DNA from: Rhizohabitans arisaemae
GTDB lineage: Bacteria; Actinomycetota; Actinomycetes; Streptosporangiales; Streptosporangiaceae
Assembly: GCF_025996515.1 (NCBI RefSeq)
Contig: NZ_BLRH01000009.1
Coordinates: 310,001 to 374,000 of the forward strand
Reading direction: 5' to 3'
DNA length: 64,000 nucleotides
A model generated the notes under the pieces. It ran no database searches, was not told the origin of the DNA, and saw only the letters and a program-made list of their open reading frames with translations. The position numbers were made by a program, and so were the translations under genes. This document shows, in pieces, positions 4,934-37,705 of this stretch; position 1 is the stretch's first letter, and the number at the start of each line of letters is the position of its first letter.

Positions 4934-6072
4934 CCGGCCTCCCCCGGCCGTGGGCGCTGCTCGCCGAGCTCACCCACGCGTGCCCGCTGCGCTGCCCGTA
5001 CTGCTCCAACCCCGTCGAACTCGTCCGCCGATCGGCCGAACTGACGGCCGCCGACTGGGCCAGGGTGTTCGGCGAGGCGGCCGGGCTCGGCGTCGTCCAC
5101 ACCCACCTGTCCGGCGGCGAGCCGCTGCTCCGGCCCGACCTCGCCGAGATCACCGCCTCGGCGGTCCGGACCGGGCTCTACACCCAGCTCGTCACCAGCG
5201 GGGTCGGGCTGACCGAGACCAGAATGGCCGAGCTCCTCGACGCGGGCCTGCACAGCGTGCAGCTCTCCGTCCAGGACGCCGACCCGGTCTCCTCCGACCG
5301 GATCGGCGGCCGGCGGTCGTTCCCCGCCAAGGAGCGCGCCGCGCGGCTGGTCGTCGAGTCCGGGCTCCCCCTCGGGCTCAACGTCGTGCTGCACCGGCAC
5401 AATCTGGACTCCCTCGACGAGATCATCGCCCTCGGCCTCTCCTGGGGCGTCAGCCGGATCGAGCTCGCCAACACCCAGTACTACGGATGGGCCCAGCTCA
5501 ACCGCGCGGCGCTCCTGCCCACCCGGGAGCAGCTGGCCCGGGCGGAGCCGACCCTGCGGCGCTGGCGTGACCGGCTGGCCGGTTCCGTCGAGGTGATCTG
5601 GGTGGTGCCCGACTACTTCGAAGGCATCCCCAAGCCGTGTATGGGCGGCTGGGGGTCGCTCTCCATCACCGTCGGGCCGGACGGGACCGCGCTCCCCTGC
5701 CCGGCCGCGTACGCCCTGCCGGGGCTGGACCCGCCGAGCGTCCGCGACCGGCCGCTCGCCTGGATCTGGGAGAGCTCCCCGGCGTTCAACGCCTACCGGG
5801 GCACCGCGTGGCTGCCCGAGCCGTGCGCCGGCTGCCCGCGCCGGGAGATCGACTTCGGCGGGTGCCGTTGCCAGGCATTCGCGATCACCGGGGACGCCGG
5901 GCGGACCGATCCGGCCTGCGCGCTCTCCCCCGACCATCACCTGATCAAGGAACTCACCGAGGGCGGCGACCCCGCGGCGCCGGCCGAGCTGGTCTACCGC
6001 GGCCCGCGCCGGCGGCGGGGAGCCGTCGGTGAAGTCATGGTTTCGGCTCCACCCGAACAACCAATAGGTTGA
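4930..6072 (+). CDS. pqqE: Radical SAM enzyme PqqE
   Basis: This 380-residue enzyme starts with GTG inside the pqqD stop. THACPLRCPYC gives the radical-SAM cluster triad Cys18, Cys22 and Cys25. HLSGGEPLLRPD is the GGE SAM-binding motif. The C-terminal SPASM region carries the auxiliary-cluster cysteines (PCMGGWG, LPCPAA, PCAGCPRREIDFGGCRCQAF). It forges the Glu-Tyr C-C bond in PqqA. It is the last gene of the operon, and a GC-rich hairpin follows at 6080. Confidence 0.96.
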   Translation: MTGLPRPWALLAELTHACPLRCPYCSNPVELVRRSAELTAADWARVFGEAAGLGVVHTHLSGGEPLLRPDLAEITASAVRTGLYTQLVTSGVGLTETRMAELLDAGLHSVQLSVQDADPVSSDRIGGRRSFPAKERAARLVVESGLPLGLNVVLHRHNLDSLDEIIALGLSWGVSRIELANTQYYGWAQLNRAALLPTREQLARAEPTLRRWRDRLAGSVEVIWVVPDYFEGIPKPCMGGWGSLSITVGPDGTALPCPAAYALPGLDPPSVRDRPLAWIWESSPAFNAYRGTAWLPEPCAGCPRREIDFGGCRCQAFAITGDAGRTDPACALSPDHHLIKELTEGGDPAAPAELVYRGPRRRRGAVGEVMVSAPPEQPIG

Positions 6073-6079
6073 TCGTGAC

Positions 6080-6102
6080 ACCCCGCCCCCGCCGGGCGGG
6101 GT
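6080..6102 (+). terminator. Hairpin after pqqE
   Basis: An 8-base stem (ACCCCGCC with GGCGGGGT) lies just behind the pqqE stop. It probably ends the pqq transcript. No U-run follows. Confidence 0.45.
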
Positions 6103-6336
6103 CGCGTCGACGTCGCCGGCAGGACGGAGCCATGCGGTTGAGTCGTGTGCCCACGCCCCACATTCCCGATCCGACACATCGGACGTATATTACGCATGCG
6201 GAAAAACAGCAACTAAACAATTAACGGAGTCATCTTCACCTTTCTTCACTTATACATTGCCTTATATCGGCATGAAATTTGACATTTCAACCAACCACAG
6301 CGTAAAGCTGTGATCAACAGATATAGACTTATCAAT
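6103..6336. promoter_or_regulatory. AT-rich promoter region before the lipoprotein gene
   Basis: This stretch is distinctly AT-rich, in contrast with its surroundings. TTGACA at 6279-6284 matches a -35 box. A weaker TAAAGC-like -10 follows after about 18 bases, which would place transcription start near 6310. That position favours the ATG at 6337 over the GTG at 6310 as the start of the lipoprotein. Confidence 0.4.
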
Positions 6337-6771
6337 ATGTCTTCATGGAAAATCAGAACCTCGGCGGGGGTGCTTACGGCATTCACCGGGCTCCTCCTGC
6401 TGACGGGCTGCTCCGGCGACGCGAACGGCGCGGACACCCCGCGGGACGTCGTGGACGCCTATGTCACGGCCCTCAACGAGGAGGACACCGAGGCGCTCAA
6501 CCGGCTGATCCCCCCGGGCAACAACGCCGACGCCGAGATCGAGGAACTGCTCAAGGCCCACGGCGGCAAGGAGATCACCCTCAGCGAGGCCGCGATCACC
6601 AGCGAGGACTTCCGCAAGGTGGCCACCGCGCGGCTCTCCGGGGTCGGCACCGCCGGCTCGTACAGCGAAACGCTGACGATCACCCAGAACGGTGATCGCT
6701 GGTACGTCGCGCTCGGCCGGAACCCGGACCCCAACAAGATCCCGACCTCGTCGGTCGACCGGCCCACCTGA
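6337..6771 (+). CDS. Lipoprotein with nuclear-transport-factor-2-like domain
   Basis: From the ATG at 6337 the product has 144 residues. It has a short basic N-terminus, a hydrophobic core and a lipobox LLTGC (Cys near residue 25), so it should be lipid-anchored outside the membrane. The rest (DVVDAYVTALNEEDTEALNRLIPP ... GDRWYVALG) reads like a DUF4878/NTF2-like fold of actinomycete lipoproteins. No enzymatic motif is visible. No clear Shine-Dalgarno sequence precedes either possible start. Confidence 0.75.
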   Translation: MSSWKIRTSAGVLTAFTGLLLLTGCSGDANGADTPRDVVDAYVTALNEEDTEALNRLIPPGNNADAEIEELLKAHGGKEITLSEAAITSEDFRKVATARLSGVGTAGSYSETLTITQNGDRWYVALGRNPDPNKIPTSSVDRPT

Positions 6772-33413: not shown

Positions 33414-34236
33414 TGTCCGCCTCTTCTTTGTGTTGGCCGGTAACGCGAACCACTGGGGCCAACGATCACCGCGCACCGCCCTGTTCCCGTTTTCCGGGTT
33501 GACCACAAGCTTGACCTGGTCTCACTACCGTGGGTACGGCCGCCGTACGGTCCGCCACCACTCAAAGATCACCCGAAACCACCATAAAGGCTCAGATACC
33601 AGGCAGACACGGCGATCCATCCGGTCTCCGGCGAACGGCACGGATCACACCGACCCCGGAACCGCGATTGACTCGGCCCTTGACCATGATTCATCGCAGC
33701 GGGTACGGCGGGCGCGGCTCCAAGCGCCGGCGCACCGGGTGCGGCCGGGAGGATTCGGCTTGCCGAAACCCCCCTCCGAACACCCTCGGAACATGCCTGG
33801 ACGGGATCCCGGAATACCACAGACTCCCGACACAGTATTCATTATTACCGACAGCCGATCGAACATTTAGCACTTTTATTGGGACATATCAAACCAATCA
33901 TCTGCCGAAGCCTGGCCACCGAAGATCCAGCGTTTCAACCTTTACCAAATCTTGCCAGAAAAACCCTATCCTGATCACTACATTCCCTGGTAAAAGCACA
34001 CGCCATCGATCGAGAACCACCAGGCCACAGACCATCCAGGCCCTCCACCACCCCGATTTCACTTATGCCCGGCTGCCTCCTGCCCATCTGATGCCGACCG
34101 TGAATTGGTAACCGTTTCCTGCCTTGTCAGTAATGCCGCTGGGGCGGATTATCAAGCATGGCCGCCACGTCGGGGCCACGCCAATGCAGGGTCAGTTGCC
34201 TAAGCAGCCAAGCGGCGACTTAGGAGGAAGCCGAAA
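33414..34236. other. 823-base intergenic region without a credible gene
   Basis: Base composition falls clearly below the window average from about 33850 to 34140. An open frame at 33530-34111 has no ribosome site, a biased composition (Thr/Arg/Pro rich) and no family look, so it is not called. The last bases (TTAGGAGGAAG) are the ribosome site of the astacin gene. It could hold a long promoter region. Confidence 0.5.
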
Positions 34237-35349
34237 ATGGCACCTACCGATGATCAAAGCACTGACACATCCGCGACCGACGGGGTGACCGGTTCGGGCC
34301 AGTACCGCATCGGCCCGGAGGTACACGTCGGTCTGATCCAGACCGTCACCCAAGGCCCGAAGGCCGTCCAGTACACCCTCGTCGACGGTGAGCCCATGGT
34401 GGAGGGGGACATCGTCCTCAGCCTCATCGGCCCCGAAGACCTGCTCCAGCCGGTGTCCGGGGACTCCGGCGTCGAACGCGGCATCGTCGTCACCGGGAAC
34501 CAGTTCCGATGGCCGAACGGCGTGGTGCCGTACGACATCGAGGCCGCGCTCCCCAATCAGGCCCGGGTCACCGACGCCATCGCCCACTGGGAGCGCAACA
34601 CCCGGATCCGTTTCGTGCTCCGGACAGCCGCCAACGCCGCGCAGTTCCCGAACTTCGTCCGCTTCGGGGTGGGCGACGGCTGCAGCTCACCGGTGGGGAT
34701 GCGGGGCAACCAGCAGACCATCCGGCTCGCCGCCGGGTGCAGCACCGGGAGCACCATCCACGAGATCGGGCACAGCGCCGGGCTGTGGCACGAGCAGAGC
34801 CGGGAGGACCGGAACAACTGGGTCACGGTCAACTGGGCCAACATCCAGCCCGCGAGCGCGCACAACTTCAACCAGCAGATCAACGACGGCGACGACGTGG
34901 GCCCGTACGACTATCACTCGATCATGCATTACGGGCGCCGGGGCTTCGCGATCGACCCGAACGCGGACACCCTGACGCCGGTGCAGAACGTCGAGATCGG
35001 CCAGCGGGAGGGGCTCAGCCCGGGTGACTGCGCCGCGATCCGGTCGATCTATCAGGGTCTGGAGCCCGCCGCGGTCTTCCGGGGGGTCCAGTTCACCGGG
35101 ACGGTCCCCGCGAACAGCACCCGCCGGTGGTTCACCCACAGCTGGCCCGCCGCCTGGTACGTCATCTGGACGGTGGTCCCCACCGCCCCGATCGTGGACG
35201 GGGAGGCCCAGCTGGAGTGGACGGTCCAGGTGACCCGGCAGTCCGGTGGGCTGCTCAAGTACTTCATCGCCGTCCGCAACCTCACCGCCGGCCAGATCGG
35301 CTTCGAAGCCCGATACGACGTCCTCGGCTGGTCGCTCGCGGCGACGTGA
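34237..35349 (+). CDS. Astacin-type (M12A) zinc metalloprotease with C-terminal partner domain
   Basis: The 370-residue protein has an N-terminal propeptide-like region (1-85). The astacin domain (about 86-275) has the zinc motif HEIGHSAGLWHE at 175-186 and the Met-turn SIMHYGRRGF. A C-terminal domain of about 90 residues (281-370) begins FRGVQFTGTVP. No signal peptide is visible, which is unusual for astacins. The ribosome site is AGGAGGAAG. The C-terminal domain is repeated as a separate protein two genes downstream (35623-35880), so the three genes form one cassette. Confidence 0.9.
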   Translation: MAPTDDQSTDTSATDGVTGSGQYRIGPEVHVGLIQTVTQGPKAVQYTLVDGEPMVEGDIVLSLIGPEDLLQPVSGDSGVERGIVVTGNQFRWPNGVVPYDIEAALPNQARVTDAIAHWERNTRIRFVLRTAANAAQFPNFVRFGVGDGCSSPVGMRGNQQTIRLAAGCSTGSTIHEIGHSAGLWHEQSREDRNNWVTVNWANIQPASAHNFNQQINDGDDVGPYDYHSIMHYGRRGFAIDPNADTLTPVQNVEIGQREGLSPGDCAAIRSIYQGLEPAAVFRGVQFTGTVPANSTRRWFTHSWPAAWYVIWTVVPTAPIVDGEAQLEWTVQVTRQSGGLLKYFIAVRNLTAGQIGFEARYDVLGWSLAAT

Positions 35350-35360
35350 GAGGAGCCCCC

Positions 35361-35609
35361 ATGAGATACGTACCCGCTGACGAAGCCCGATTCGGGGCCG
35401 GTTCCGCGGCCTCGGACGCCGGGCTCCTGAACGGCGGCCCGGCCCCCGCGGTGGCGGGCGACGCCGCCTACTCCCCGCTCGCGACGGCGGACGACCTGGT
35501 GGACGGGGGCGGCGCCCCAAGGGGTGACTCCGCCGCCGTGGCCTTCGACGTCACCGCGGCGGAAGCCGAATCCGAAGACGCGGGCGGTGCGCCCACCGCC
35601 CCGAGCTGA
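35361..35609 (+). CDS. Small acidic, Ala/Gly-rich protein of the astacin cassette
   Basis: This 82-residue protein starts MRYVPADEARFGAG and is rich in Ala, Gly, Asp and Glu with no cysteine. It looks intrinsically disordered. GAGAGGAGC precedes the ATG, 11 bases after the protease stop, so it is part of the operon. There is no signal peptide and no family. It could be a protease substrate, inhibitor or leader-type peptide; none of these is shown. Confidence 0.65.
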   Translation: MRYVPADEARFGAGSAASDAGLLNGGPAPAVAGDAAYSPLATADDLVDGGGAPRGDSAAVAFDVTAAEAESEDAGGAPTAPS

Positions 35610-35622
35610 GAGAGGACGAGCC

Positions 35623-35880
35623 ATGTGGCTTGGCGTGCAATTTCGTGGTTCGGTGCCCGCGGGAGCGACGCGACGCTGGTTCACCCATAGCTGGCCGGAG
35701 GCCTGGCGCGTCGTCTGGATGGTCGTGCCGACCTGGCCGATGGTCGACGGCGACGCCCAGATCGAGTGGAAGGTCCAGGTGGACCGGCAGGCCGCCGGAC
35801 TGCTGAAGTACTTCATCGAGATCCGCAACGTCACCAACGTTCAAGTCGACATCGAGGCGCGGTTCGCCGTGTTGAACTGA
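35623..35880 (+). CDS. Stand-alone copy of the astacin C-terminal domain
   Basis: This 85-residue protein starts MWLGVQFRGSVPAGATRRWFTHSWPEAW. It is collinear with residues about 281-365 of the astacin protein (FRGVQFTGTVPANSTRRWFTHSWPAAW), sharing most positions, including VDG(D/E)AQ(I/L)EW, GLLKYFI and the EAR(F/Y) end. It is predicted to be an all-beta domain. The shared motif RRWFTHSWP may be a binding surface. AGAGGACGAG precedes the ATG, 13 bases after the small acidic gene. Confidence 0.8.
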   Translation: MWLGVQFRGSVPAGATRRWFTHSWPEAWRVVWMVVPTWPMVDGDAQIEWKVQVDRQAAGLLKYFIEIRNVTNVQVDIEARFAVLN

Positions 35881-35910: not shown

Positions 35911-35944
35911 GCGGTCCGGCCCTTGGGGCCGGGCCGCTCGTTTT
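35911..35944 (+). terminator. Terminator of the astacin cassette
   Basis: GCGGTCCGGCCC pairs with GGGCCGGGCCGC (one G-T pair) around TTG and is followed by TCGTTTT, a good intrinsic terminator. Confidence 0.8.
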
Positions 35945-36160: not shown

Positions 36161-37705
36161 ATGCGCGTCAATCTCCGACGGGCCGGGGTATGCGTCACCA
36201 CCGTGATGGCCGCCTTGGCCCTTCCGCTCGCCTCAGCCGTTCCGGCCAACGCCACACACGGTGACGTCTTCGCCAAGCTCCTGGTGAAGTCGGTCAAGGG
36301 GTCCAAGGTCAAGAAGCACCTCGACGCCTTCCAGGCCATCGCCGACGCCAACGGGGGCAACCGCGCCGCCGGGACGAGCGGCTACGTCGCCTCGCGCGAC
36401 TACGTCGCGAACAAGCTCCGCAAAGCCGGATACAAGGTCAGCTTCACCGACGTCGACTTCGTGAAGAGCTGGACGGAGACGACCCCGTCGACGCTCCAGC
36501 AGGTCTCCCCCGTGGCCAAGTCCTACACCCACACCGCGGACTTCGTCACCACGATCCCCTCCGGCTCCGGCGACGTCACCGCTCAGGTGCAGGGCGTCGA
36601 CCTGGTCCTTCCGCCGTCGCCGACCCCGTCCTCGACCAGCGGCTGCGAGGCGAGCGACTTCGCGTCCTTCGTCCCCGGCCGGATCGCGCTGATCCAGCGC
36701 GGCACCTGCCCGTACGTGCAGAAGCTCGGCAACGCCCGGGACGCCGGGGCCGCCGCGGTGATCCTCTTCAACGAGGGGCAGCCCGGCCGGACCGACGCCT
36801 ACCAGTTCGACATGGGTGAGTGGCGGTACGGCTTCCCGATCGTCTTCGCCAACACCGCCACCGGGATCGACCTGGCGAGCGCGCCGGGCACCGTCGTGCG
36901 GGTGAAGACCGACACCGTCCTGGATCTGGGCAAGGACCAGAACGTCATCGCCGAGTCCCGCTGGGGCCGGAGCGACAACGTGGTGATGGTCGGCGCGCAC
37001 CTGGACGGGGTCCACGAGGGCGCGGGCATCAACGACAACGGCTCGGGCAGCGCCGCGGTCCTGGAGGTCGCGCTGCAGATGCGCCACTTCCCGGTGCGGA
37101 ACAAGGTCCGTTTCGCCTTCTGGGCGGCCGAGGAGATCGGCCTGCTCGGCTCCAACCAGTACGTGGCGGAGCTGACTCAGGCCCAACGGGACAAGATCAA
37201 GCTCTACCTCAACTTCGACATGGTGGCCTCGCCGAACTACGCCTACAAGCTCTACGACGGCGACAACTCCGACGGTGTCGGCGCCCCCGCGGGCCCGCCC
37301 GGATCGGCGCAGATCGAGCAGCTGCTGAAGAGCTTCTACAACTCACGTAGCCTGCCCACCAACGGCACCGACTTCGACGGGCGCTCCGACTACGGCGCGT
37401 TCATCGAGGCGGGCATCCCGGCTGGCGGCATCTTCACCGGCGCCGAGGTCCTCAAGACCGCCGAGGAGGCCGCGCTCTTCGGCGGCACCGCCGGGGCCCC
37501 CTTCGACCCCTGCTACCACGCGGCCTGCGACAACATCAACAACATCAGCATGACCGCGCTCGACGTGAACTCCGACGCGATCGCCAACACCGTCGGCGTC
37601 TACGCGTTCGACACCCGTTCCATCCCGCCGCGGACCGCCGCGGCGACCGCCACCGCCAAGGGCGCCGCCCCCGACACCGCGCGCACGTACACCGGTCCCA
37701 GCTGA
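36161..37705 (+). CDS. Secreted M28 family aminopeptidase with PA domain
   Basis: This 514-residue exported enzyme has a signal peptide (cut after ANA near residue 30). A protease-associated insert lies at about residues 130-245 (FASFVPGRIALIQRGTCPYVQKLGNARDAGAAAVILFNEG). The zinc residues sit in VMVGAHLDGV, GINDNGSGSAA, FWAAEEIGLLGS, LNFDMVASPN and CYHAACD. This is a Streptomyces-aminopeptidase-like leucyl aminopeptidase. The ribosome site is GTAGAGGAGC. A hairpin terminator follows at 37724. Confidence 0.94.
   Translation: MRVNLRRAGVCVTTVMAALALPLASAVPANATHGDVFAKLLVKSVKGSKVKKHLDAFQAIADANGGNRAAGTSGYVASRDYVANKLRKAGYKVSFTDVDFVKSWTETTPSTLQQVSPVAKSYTHTADFVTTIPSGSGDVTAQVQGVDLVLPPSPTPSSTSGCEASDFASFVPGRIALIQRGTCPYVQKLGNARDAGAAAVILFNEGQPGRTDAYQFDMGEWRYGFPIVFANTATGIDLASAPGTVVRVKTDTVLDLGKDQNVIAESRWGRSDNVVMVGAHLDGVHEGAGINDNGSGSAAVLEVALQMRHFPVRNKVRFAFWAAEEIGLLGSNQYVAELTQAQRDKIKLYLNFDMVASPNYAYKLYDGDNSDGVGAPAGPPGSAQIEQLLKSFYNSRSLPTNGTDFDGRSDYGAFIEAGIPAGGIFTGAEVLKTAEEAALFGGTAGAPFDPCYHAACDNINNISMTALDVNSDAIANTVGVYAFDTRSIPPRTAAATATAKGAAPDTARTYTGPS

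Follow-up and report, generated by a model that had tools for sequence, protein, structure and literature searches.

The astacin cassette of the window

The window, that is the whole stretch of 64,000 nucleotides from Rhizohabitans arisaemae which was analysed (assembly GCF_025996515.1, contig NZ_BLRH01000009.1), holds a compact cassette of three genes: a metalloprotease, a small acidic peptide and a protein of 85 residues. The protease and the last protein have in common a domain called D here, which is fused to the C-terminus of the enzyme in the first case and free in the second. The features are as follows.

34222..34227, + strand: AGGAGG, from its position the likely ribosome-binding site for the protease
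34237..35349, + strand: gene of an astacin (M12A) metalloprotease, 370 aa (Pfam Astacin)
34399..34413, + strand: VEGDI in the N-terminal segment of the protease, resembling FXGDI, the aspartate-switch motif in the pro-segments of animal astacins (motif)
34507..35055, + strand: astacin catalytic domain (Pfam Astacin, residues 91-273)
34759..34812, + strand: zinc site HEIGHSAGLWHEQSREDR (motif reading)
35074..35325, + strand: fused D domain, protease residues 280-363, 84 residues (alignment)
35361..35609, + strand: acidic low-complexity peptide, 82 aa, with repeated [DN]xGxAP-like motifs
35623..35880, + strand: free D protein, 85 aa (homology to fused D)
35917..35936, + strand: terminator-like hairpin that would end a three-gene operon (weak candidate)

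The intergenic gaps of the cassette amount to 11 nt (protease to peptide) and 13 nt (peptide to free D). The hairpin is rated as weak since the region contains 3 terminator-like sites against 1.6 expected from shuffles. The protease matched Pfam Astacin over residues 91-273 with E 1.4e-45 and 155.8 bits (cut-off 22.5). In the first-pass annotation its tail was described as duplicated in a separate protein, and this was borne out: protease residues 280-363 align with the third protein without a gap, with 55/84 identities (65%) and E 2e-39 in a single pairwise comparison, so the duplication lies far beyond chance. The homologous block had been drawn over residues 281-370; the homology stands, the limits had to be moved to 280-363, and the last 7 residues of the protease are extra. 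D was found in only these two places of the genome. A second, weaker astacin-family match of the same genome (29.5 bits; L002 and L087) is without D.

The absence of a signal peptide, noticed at first pass, could be upheld for the protease, judged by hydrophobicity alone: the best 12-residue Kyte-Doolittle mean within its first 60 residues is 0.71, against 2.38 in a single control, the protein starting at 36161, which has an evident signal peptide. In this respect the window astacin does not resemble a secreted one. Of the two settings suggested at first pass, the cytosol or a special route of export, either may apply.

Sequence and predicted fold of D

AlphaFold2 predicted D as a six-stranded beta-sandwich (mean pLDDT 94.9, pTM 0.82). 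No family over cut-off was found for D in Pfam or NCBIfam (in NCBIfam with three free D and several carriers), and 25 D sequences gave no Pfam family at E < 0.05. A sequence search of the PDB brought no match for D alone, nor for the D profile at E up to 1, and Foldseek with the D model found nothing at E < 0.001 in the PDB or among viral models. Minor matches were PTCRA for the free D of L049 (E 0.0076, under cut-off) and, in PHROGs, where no family was convincing, phrog_28219 for one of the 25 D sequences (E 0.015). The best VIA-align rows for the single domain were GOLD domains, YPM, PirA and the ColG collagen-binding domain, all with Z < 8; for a linked model of two D the best was a GOLD domain (Z 8.5, rmsd 2.1, 77 residues). 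On the scale that VIA-align itself provides, these likenesses of the models may reflect just a common sandwich arrangement.

Recurrence and gene order

Conservation of the gene order had been set beforehand as one of the points on which the first-pass annotation could be checked, and the order proved to be conserved, beyond astacins too. In 32/39 D loci the gene with fused D has a free-D gene after it in the same orientation, a proportion to be read with the fact that loci were found via D itself, so that a two-copy locus has two chances of detection; L086, a match to L024, was left out of the count. The first scan (pattern and tblastn, one genome per species) gave 23 loci, 19 of them with the pair. 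Astacin cassettes account for thirteen of these (L003-L015; Lentzea, Saccharothrix, Streptomyces), and five pairs are from Zobellia and Pricia (L016-L020). The remaining pair, L021, is from a Chloroflexia contig that includes no more of the fused gene than its last 160 residues, in which there is an S8 serine motif and no Pfam match. A tblastn search of plasmids added L033 on Haloferax mediterranei pHME505, and genome profile searches added L034-L036, L047-L051 and L080-L085. The pair thus occurs in Actinomycetota, Bacteroidota, Chloroflexota and the archaeon Haloferax. A fused D without a free one was found in L022, L023, L035 and L036, and L084 lies at a contig end with the free-D side out of view. 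Broken free D with no fused D found are those of L024 and L025, the former (5992-6457) retained by Nonomuraea fuscirosea with no fused D nearby. Two contigs of Lentzea sp. NEAU-D7 carry cassettes with identical D copies (L003 and L005).

By profile search D proved to be rare; it was present in 11/341 genomes of the window's family, 4/396 of its phylum sample, 3/301 of Chloroflexota, 1/247 of Bacteroidota and 1/349 of Pseudomonadota, where in the last two cases the sole genome is the centre of the search. Each count includes the centre genome, and all are lower bounds because a limited number of candidates was scored per genome. Among 7 records scored completely, five (4 genomes and 1 plasmid record) have exactly one pair and no third D, one has two pairs and one a single fused D. 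Mobility of the cassette by phages or plasmids was rejected: tblastn of the window's D gave 0 matches in 50,697 phage records, none of 5 pattern matches on viral contigs was confirmed, and only 1/72,556 plasmid records, the Haloferax one, has D.

The gap from fused to free gene is 9-66 nt in 16/17 non-astacin pairs and about 400 nt in L080, and it is 210-321 nt in the 15 astacin pairs, where it is occupied by the acidic peptide or its remains. Read-through of the stop codon, which would join both D in one product, was rejected because the starts of free D are mostly preceded by purine-rich, ribosome-binding-like stretches and because the stop codon, the gap and the phase differ from pair to pair.

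Between the subtilase and free-D genes of the flavobacterial loci L016-L020 (6256-6325) there is a conserved hairpin, GGAAAGG...CCTTTCC, with 8 pairs of which 2 are changed on both sides in the five sequences. It may set the ratio of the two products. A similar sequence stands ahead of the broken orphan free D of L025 (5650-5685).

Carriers of the fused domain

The proteins to which D is fused are unrelated. Four types are over the Pfam cut-off, namely M12A (window, L048), S8 (L017, L022, L050), M64 (L047, E 1.5e-41) and Sortilin-Vps10 (L034, L051); the fifth, with BNR repeats (L049), is just under it. The Haloferax carrier is S8 by annotation, and the carriers of other loci were assigned by sequence likeness rather than by profile. 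All five types are present in the window's own family: astacin (window, L048, L084), S8 (L050, L082, L083), M64 (L047), Vps10-like (L051, L085) and BNR-like (L049). Two frames stand somewhat apart, a propeller-type protein of 1,395 aa whose D is divergent, with no free D found and with a kinase-like gene downstream (L036, 3183-8975), and a 675-aa frame with a C-terminal D whose remaining part has no Pfam family over cut-off (L035, 5292-7316).

The zinc site HExxHxxGxxHExxRxDR and the Met-turn were found in 16/16 astacin frames examined, the window's included, with L005 equal to L003 and with one internal stop elsewhere in the gene of L007 (4222-5787, between the VEGDI motif and the zinc site). 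The active-site motifs are likewise intact in 10 S8 frames examined and in M64; in the S8 carriers Pfam finds the peptidase domain only. The motif [FV]EGDI stands ahead of the catalytic domain in all 16 astacin cassettes. In animal astacins (PMC9848320) the FXGDI-type motif is the aspartate switch of latency; by analogy, the astacins of the D cassettes are probably made as zymogens.

It could be supposed that the free D is an immunity or inhibitor protein by which the producer silences its own enzyme. A small co-encoded protein stands beside the hydrolase in 32/39 loci, and the intact protease motifs imply that control is needed. The same family of D serves, however, unrelated catalytic folds as well as propellers with no recognised protease site, the astacins have their own pro-segment motif, four loci are without a free D, and an inhibitor would be expected to follow the catalytic domain rather than the tail. 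This explanation is therefore judged improbable. The first-pass annotation had offered scaffold and immunity side by side: a scaffold or co-assembly role is the part now favoured. Protease-specific immunity or competition is disfavoured, because a similar free D also stands beside carriers of the S8, M64, Vps10-like and BNR-like types and because none was found in four loci with fused D.

Most of the carrier families are usually secreted, yet none of the carrier starts in 28 frames has a strongly hydrophobic N-terminus (best values up to 1.57, against 2.38 in the control). This check covered methionine starts, with GTG/TTG starts and L005, L007, L021, L023, L035, L036, L048, L049 and L085 outside it. 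Such proteins could be sent out by a special route, with D as an export, packaging or sorting domain for an injection particle, a vesicle or a shell and the free copy as a loading chaperone or adaptor. The phage-sheath family PF17482 was over cut-off in 8/18 carrier genomes, which agrees with such a route; but 3/14 control genomes have it too, which means that it does not mark injection particles specifically, and it had no match in the window's genome, which is 98% complete. Moreover, the carriers live in one-membrane bacteria, two-membrane bacteria and an archaeon, so that no single known exporter fits, and no neighbour family recurs consistently in a coarse comparison that returned scattered common families such as ABC ATPases. 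An export role is considered improbable as well. Cargo of an injection system, as a general rule, is unsupported for the window, since its genome has no sheath match.

The acidic peptide

An acidic, cysteine-free protein of 82 residues between the two D genes was already described at first pass, and its composition (13 D/E, 3 K/R, no Cys) agrees with the description. Twelve sequences of the peptide from astacin cassettes were aligned, to which those of L048 and L005 (= L003) are added. The pattern D[AG]G-x-x-P, chosen afterwards, is present in 2-3 copies per peptide in 6 sequences, against 0.003-0.025 in their own shuffles. The peptide appears to be an astacin-specific third part of the cassette when judged at the loci themselves, because the intergenic gaps of other pairs hold none: in 16/17 of them the gap is too short, and the gap of about 400 nt in L080 has no similar peptide. 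When relatives of the peptide were looked for elsewhere in the window's genome, the best other match was a 533-residue frame at E 0.009, which was taken as a matter of composition. In L010 of Lentzea indica (5773-6255) a frame shift runs the peptide into the free D, either as a sequencing error or as a real fusion. Astacins prefer acidic residues after the cut. As for the function of the peptide, it may, at a guess, serve as a linear-motif ligand, be cut as a decoy substrate or act as an inhibitor.

Fused and free copies compared

The tree of D comprises 66 copies (35 fused, 31 free) over 86 columns, and many of its forks are open; L005, whose D is identical to that of L003, and L024, L025 and L036 were left out of it and of the column counts. 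Support of 99/99 joins the fused D of the 15 astacin cassettes in one set, and a second set (99/96) is made up of 13 of their 14 free D, with that of L048 apart. It follows from these separate sets that the astacin pair is old. In Haloferax the fused and the free D group together (99/92). On the whole tree the label fused or free changes 6 times, at least 4 of them on supported branches.

Free D is under purifying selection and is the slowest-evolving part of the cassette in Lentzea and Saccharothrix, where omega was 0.04-0.17 for free D, 0.15-0.27 for the protease and 0.28-0.70 for the peptide (7 comparisons, 5 loci). Consistent differences between free and fused copies are few. At columns 48 and 50, which belong to one predicted strand, they differ in charge: in 9/12 lineages the charge is shifted to the basic side in fused D and to the acidic side in free D, and in the other three, i.e. 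both astacin lineages (the window's included) and the flavobacteria, the sum is slightly reversed. A largest-column swap test gave p 0.03 with lineages treated as independent, of which the tree gives no guarantee; per-column tests cannot reach 0.05 because there are only 4 independent fused/free pairs on supported branches. These counts over 12 lineages also omit L022, L023, L035 and L084, which have no free partner. A linked D-D model of the L021 pair (pTM 0.70, mean pLDDT 76; built with a read-through linker and 10 rows, no interface score) is compatible with a packed pair and does not prove it.

Other positions are the same in both copies. Eight columns are invariant across the 66 copies (Q6, F20, W24, W32, G43, R55, N69 and R80), and W19 and T21 are nearly so (63/66 and 65/66). 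The loop dipeptide 22-23 (HS, WG or FN, read from one locus per lineage) is identical in the fused and free D of a locus in 10/12 lineages, with a permutation p of 0.00025 when lineages are treated as independent. The agreement is compatible with a ligand or contact common to both copies, and also with common ancestry; gene conversion could produce it too. On such grounds D may bind a sugar, a lipid or a cell-surface polymer. The fused copy would then direct the enzyme to a target that both copies share, and the free one would assist it in the manner of a soluble lectin or act as a decoy shielding the ligand of the producer, with no contact between D and D. Conserved aromatics (F20, W24, W32 and W19, together with T21), the loop and the nearest PDB shapes, i.e. 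GOLD, YPM, PirA and the ColG domain, speak for a ligand. On the other hand the Z values, below 8 for the single domain and 8.5 at best for the linked model, perhaps mark a common arrangement, and exposure to the outside is not evident because strongly hydrophobic N-termini were missing from the 28 carrier frames. Binding of a ligand with no D-D contact is regarded as somewhat unlikely.

Proposed mode of action

The reading preferred here, tentatively and with slightly less than an even chance, is an interaction of free D with fused D, by which the enzyme would be docked, capped or taken into a mixed assembly. It is the best account of the sequences because one domain is shared by five carrier types, the free copy is adjacent and downstream, and no third D is present in the 4 genomes and 1 plasmid record with a single pair that were scored completely. 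According to this reading the cassette would be one form of a two-gene module: a hydrolase or propeller with no evident signal peptide bears a jelly-roll-like D at its C-terminus, and directly downstream of it lies a gene for D and nothing more. Fused and free D would bind each other; in S8-type lineages the strand at residues 47-56 would probably contribute to the contact. In this way the free copy would dock or cap the enzyme or multimerise it, giving a mixed D assembly in which the catalytic part is an interchangeable warhead. The astacin would probably be made as a zymogen, and in its cassettes the acidic peptide with its repeated motifs would join as ligand, substrate or inhibitor; a step of release or export may follow.

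With slightly more reserve, it is possible that this is a docking system common to bacteria and archaea, where one beta-sandwich tag makes unrelated hydrolases and propellers interchangeable and is met by a dedicated free partner with a charge-diverged contact strand in a heterotypic complex. If so, one small domain ties at least five carrier types from two domains of life into a fixed two-gene plan, a partner can be named for many "orphan" hydrolases, and a ready pair of tag and partner is at hand. The question is then raised whether the free copy docks, silences or delivers the enzyme, and its size of 85 residues eases biochemistry.

Comparison with known systems

A description of the D cassette was not found in searches of the open-licence PMC literature. 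The anti-phage candidate PDC-M32A has a limited likeness to D: 6/25 D sequences match PDLC04574 (best E 3.4e-4) and 2/25 match PDLC04575. The PDLC04574 genes of 4/183 genomes match only its positions 260-354 and are missed by the D profile (best E 0.34). We lean towards a local motif and against kinship. Small genes matching these positions (L090-L093) share a GGVQ-x-EW-like motif with D.

The ColG collagen-binding domain, too, forms the C-terminal beta-sandwich of a protease. Its VIA-align comparison with D gave Z 6.3 (rmsd 2.9, 72 residues), a value that by itself does not show kinship; unlike ColG-type domains, D is also a free protein and has no sequence match in the PDB at E up to 1. LegP-type astacins (NCBIfam NF045530; LegP in PMC6617341) resemble the window protease in the catalytic domain and the N-terminal segment, matched over residues 32-273 at E 2.2e-80. 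The window protein, however, scores 269.7 bits and L048 275.6, below the cut-off of 300, and the part matched by the LegP model includes neither D nor the two small genes. With the secreted animal-type astacins (review PMC9848320) the window protein has in common the zinc motif, the Met-turn and [FV]EGDI ahead of the catalytic domain; it differs from them in having no visible signal peptide and no further Pfam tail domain, the tail being D with a free copy beside it.

The nearest described logic is that of the effector-associated adaptor domains (EADs) of bacterial NTP-dependent conflict systems. According to Kaur et al. 2020 (PMC7159879), a small domain is carried by diverse effectors, peptidases included, the protein encoded next door bears a second copy, and the role put forward is homotypic coupling. 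The cassettes differ from EADs in several respects: the protein with the second copy of D consists of D and nothing else, the fold predicted for D is a beta-sandwich and no Pfam family matches it over cut-off, and the module is present in an archaeon too. None of the described EAD families was recovered for the 25 D through Pfam (E < 0.05), which may not hold all EADs. No vWA-MoxR or GTPase core or NTPase was recognised beside the D loci in a coarse all-against-all comparison of neighbours, in which two large mixed clusters include shadow frames, so that partners can be missed; smaller cross-clade clusters, named by reading, were ABC ATPases, SARP-type regulators, a kinase and a glutamine amidotransferase-like pair, none of them consistent. 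Nevertheless, the same domain on an effector and in the adjacent gene, the arrangement typical of EADs, was found in the 32/39 D loci, and by this analogy the D cassette may work in the way proposed for effector-associated adaptor domains.
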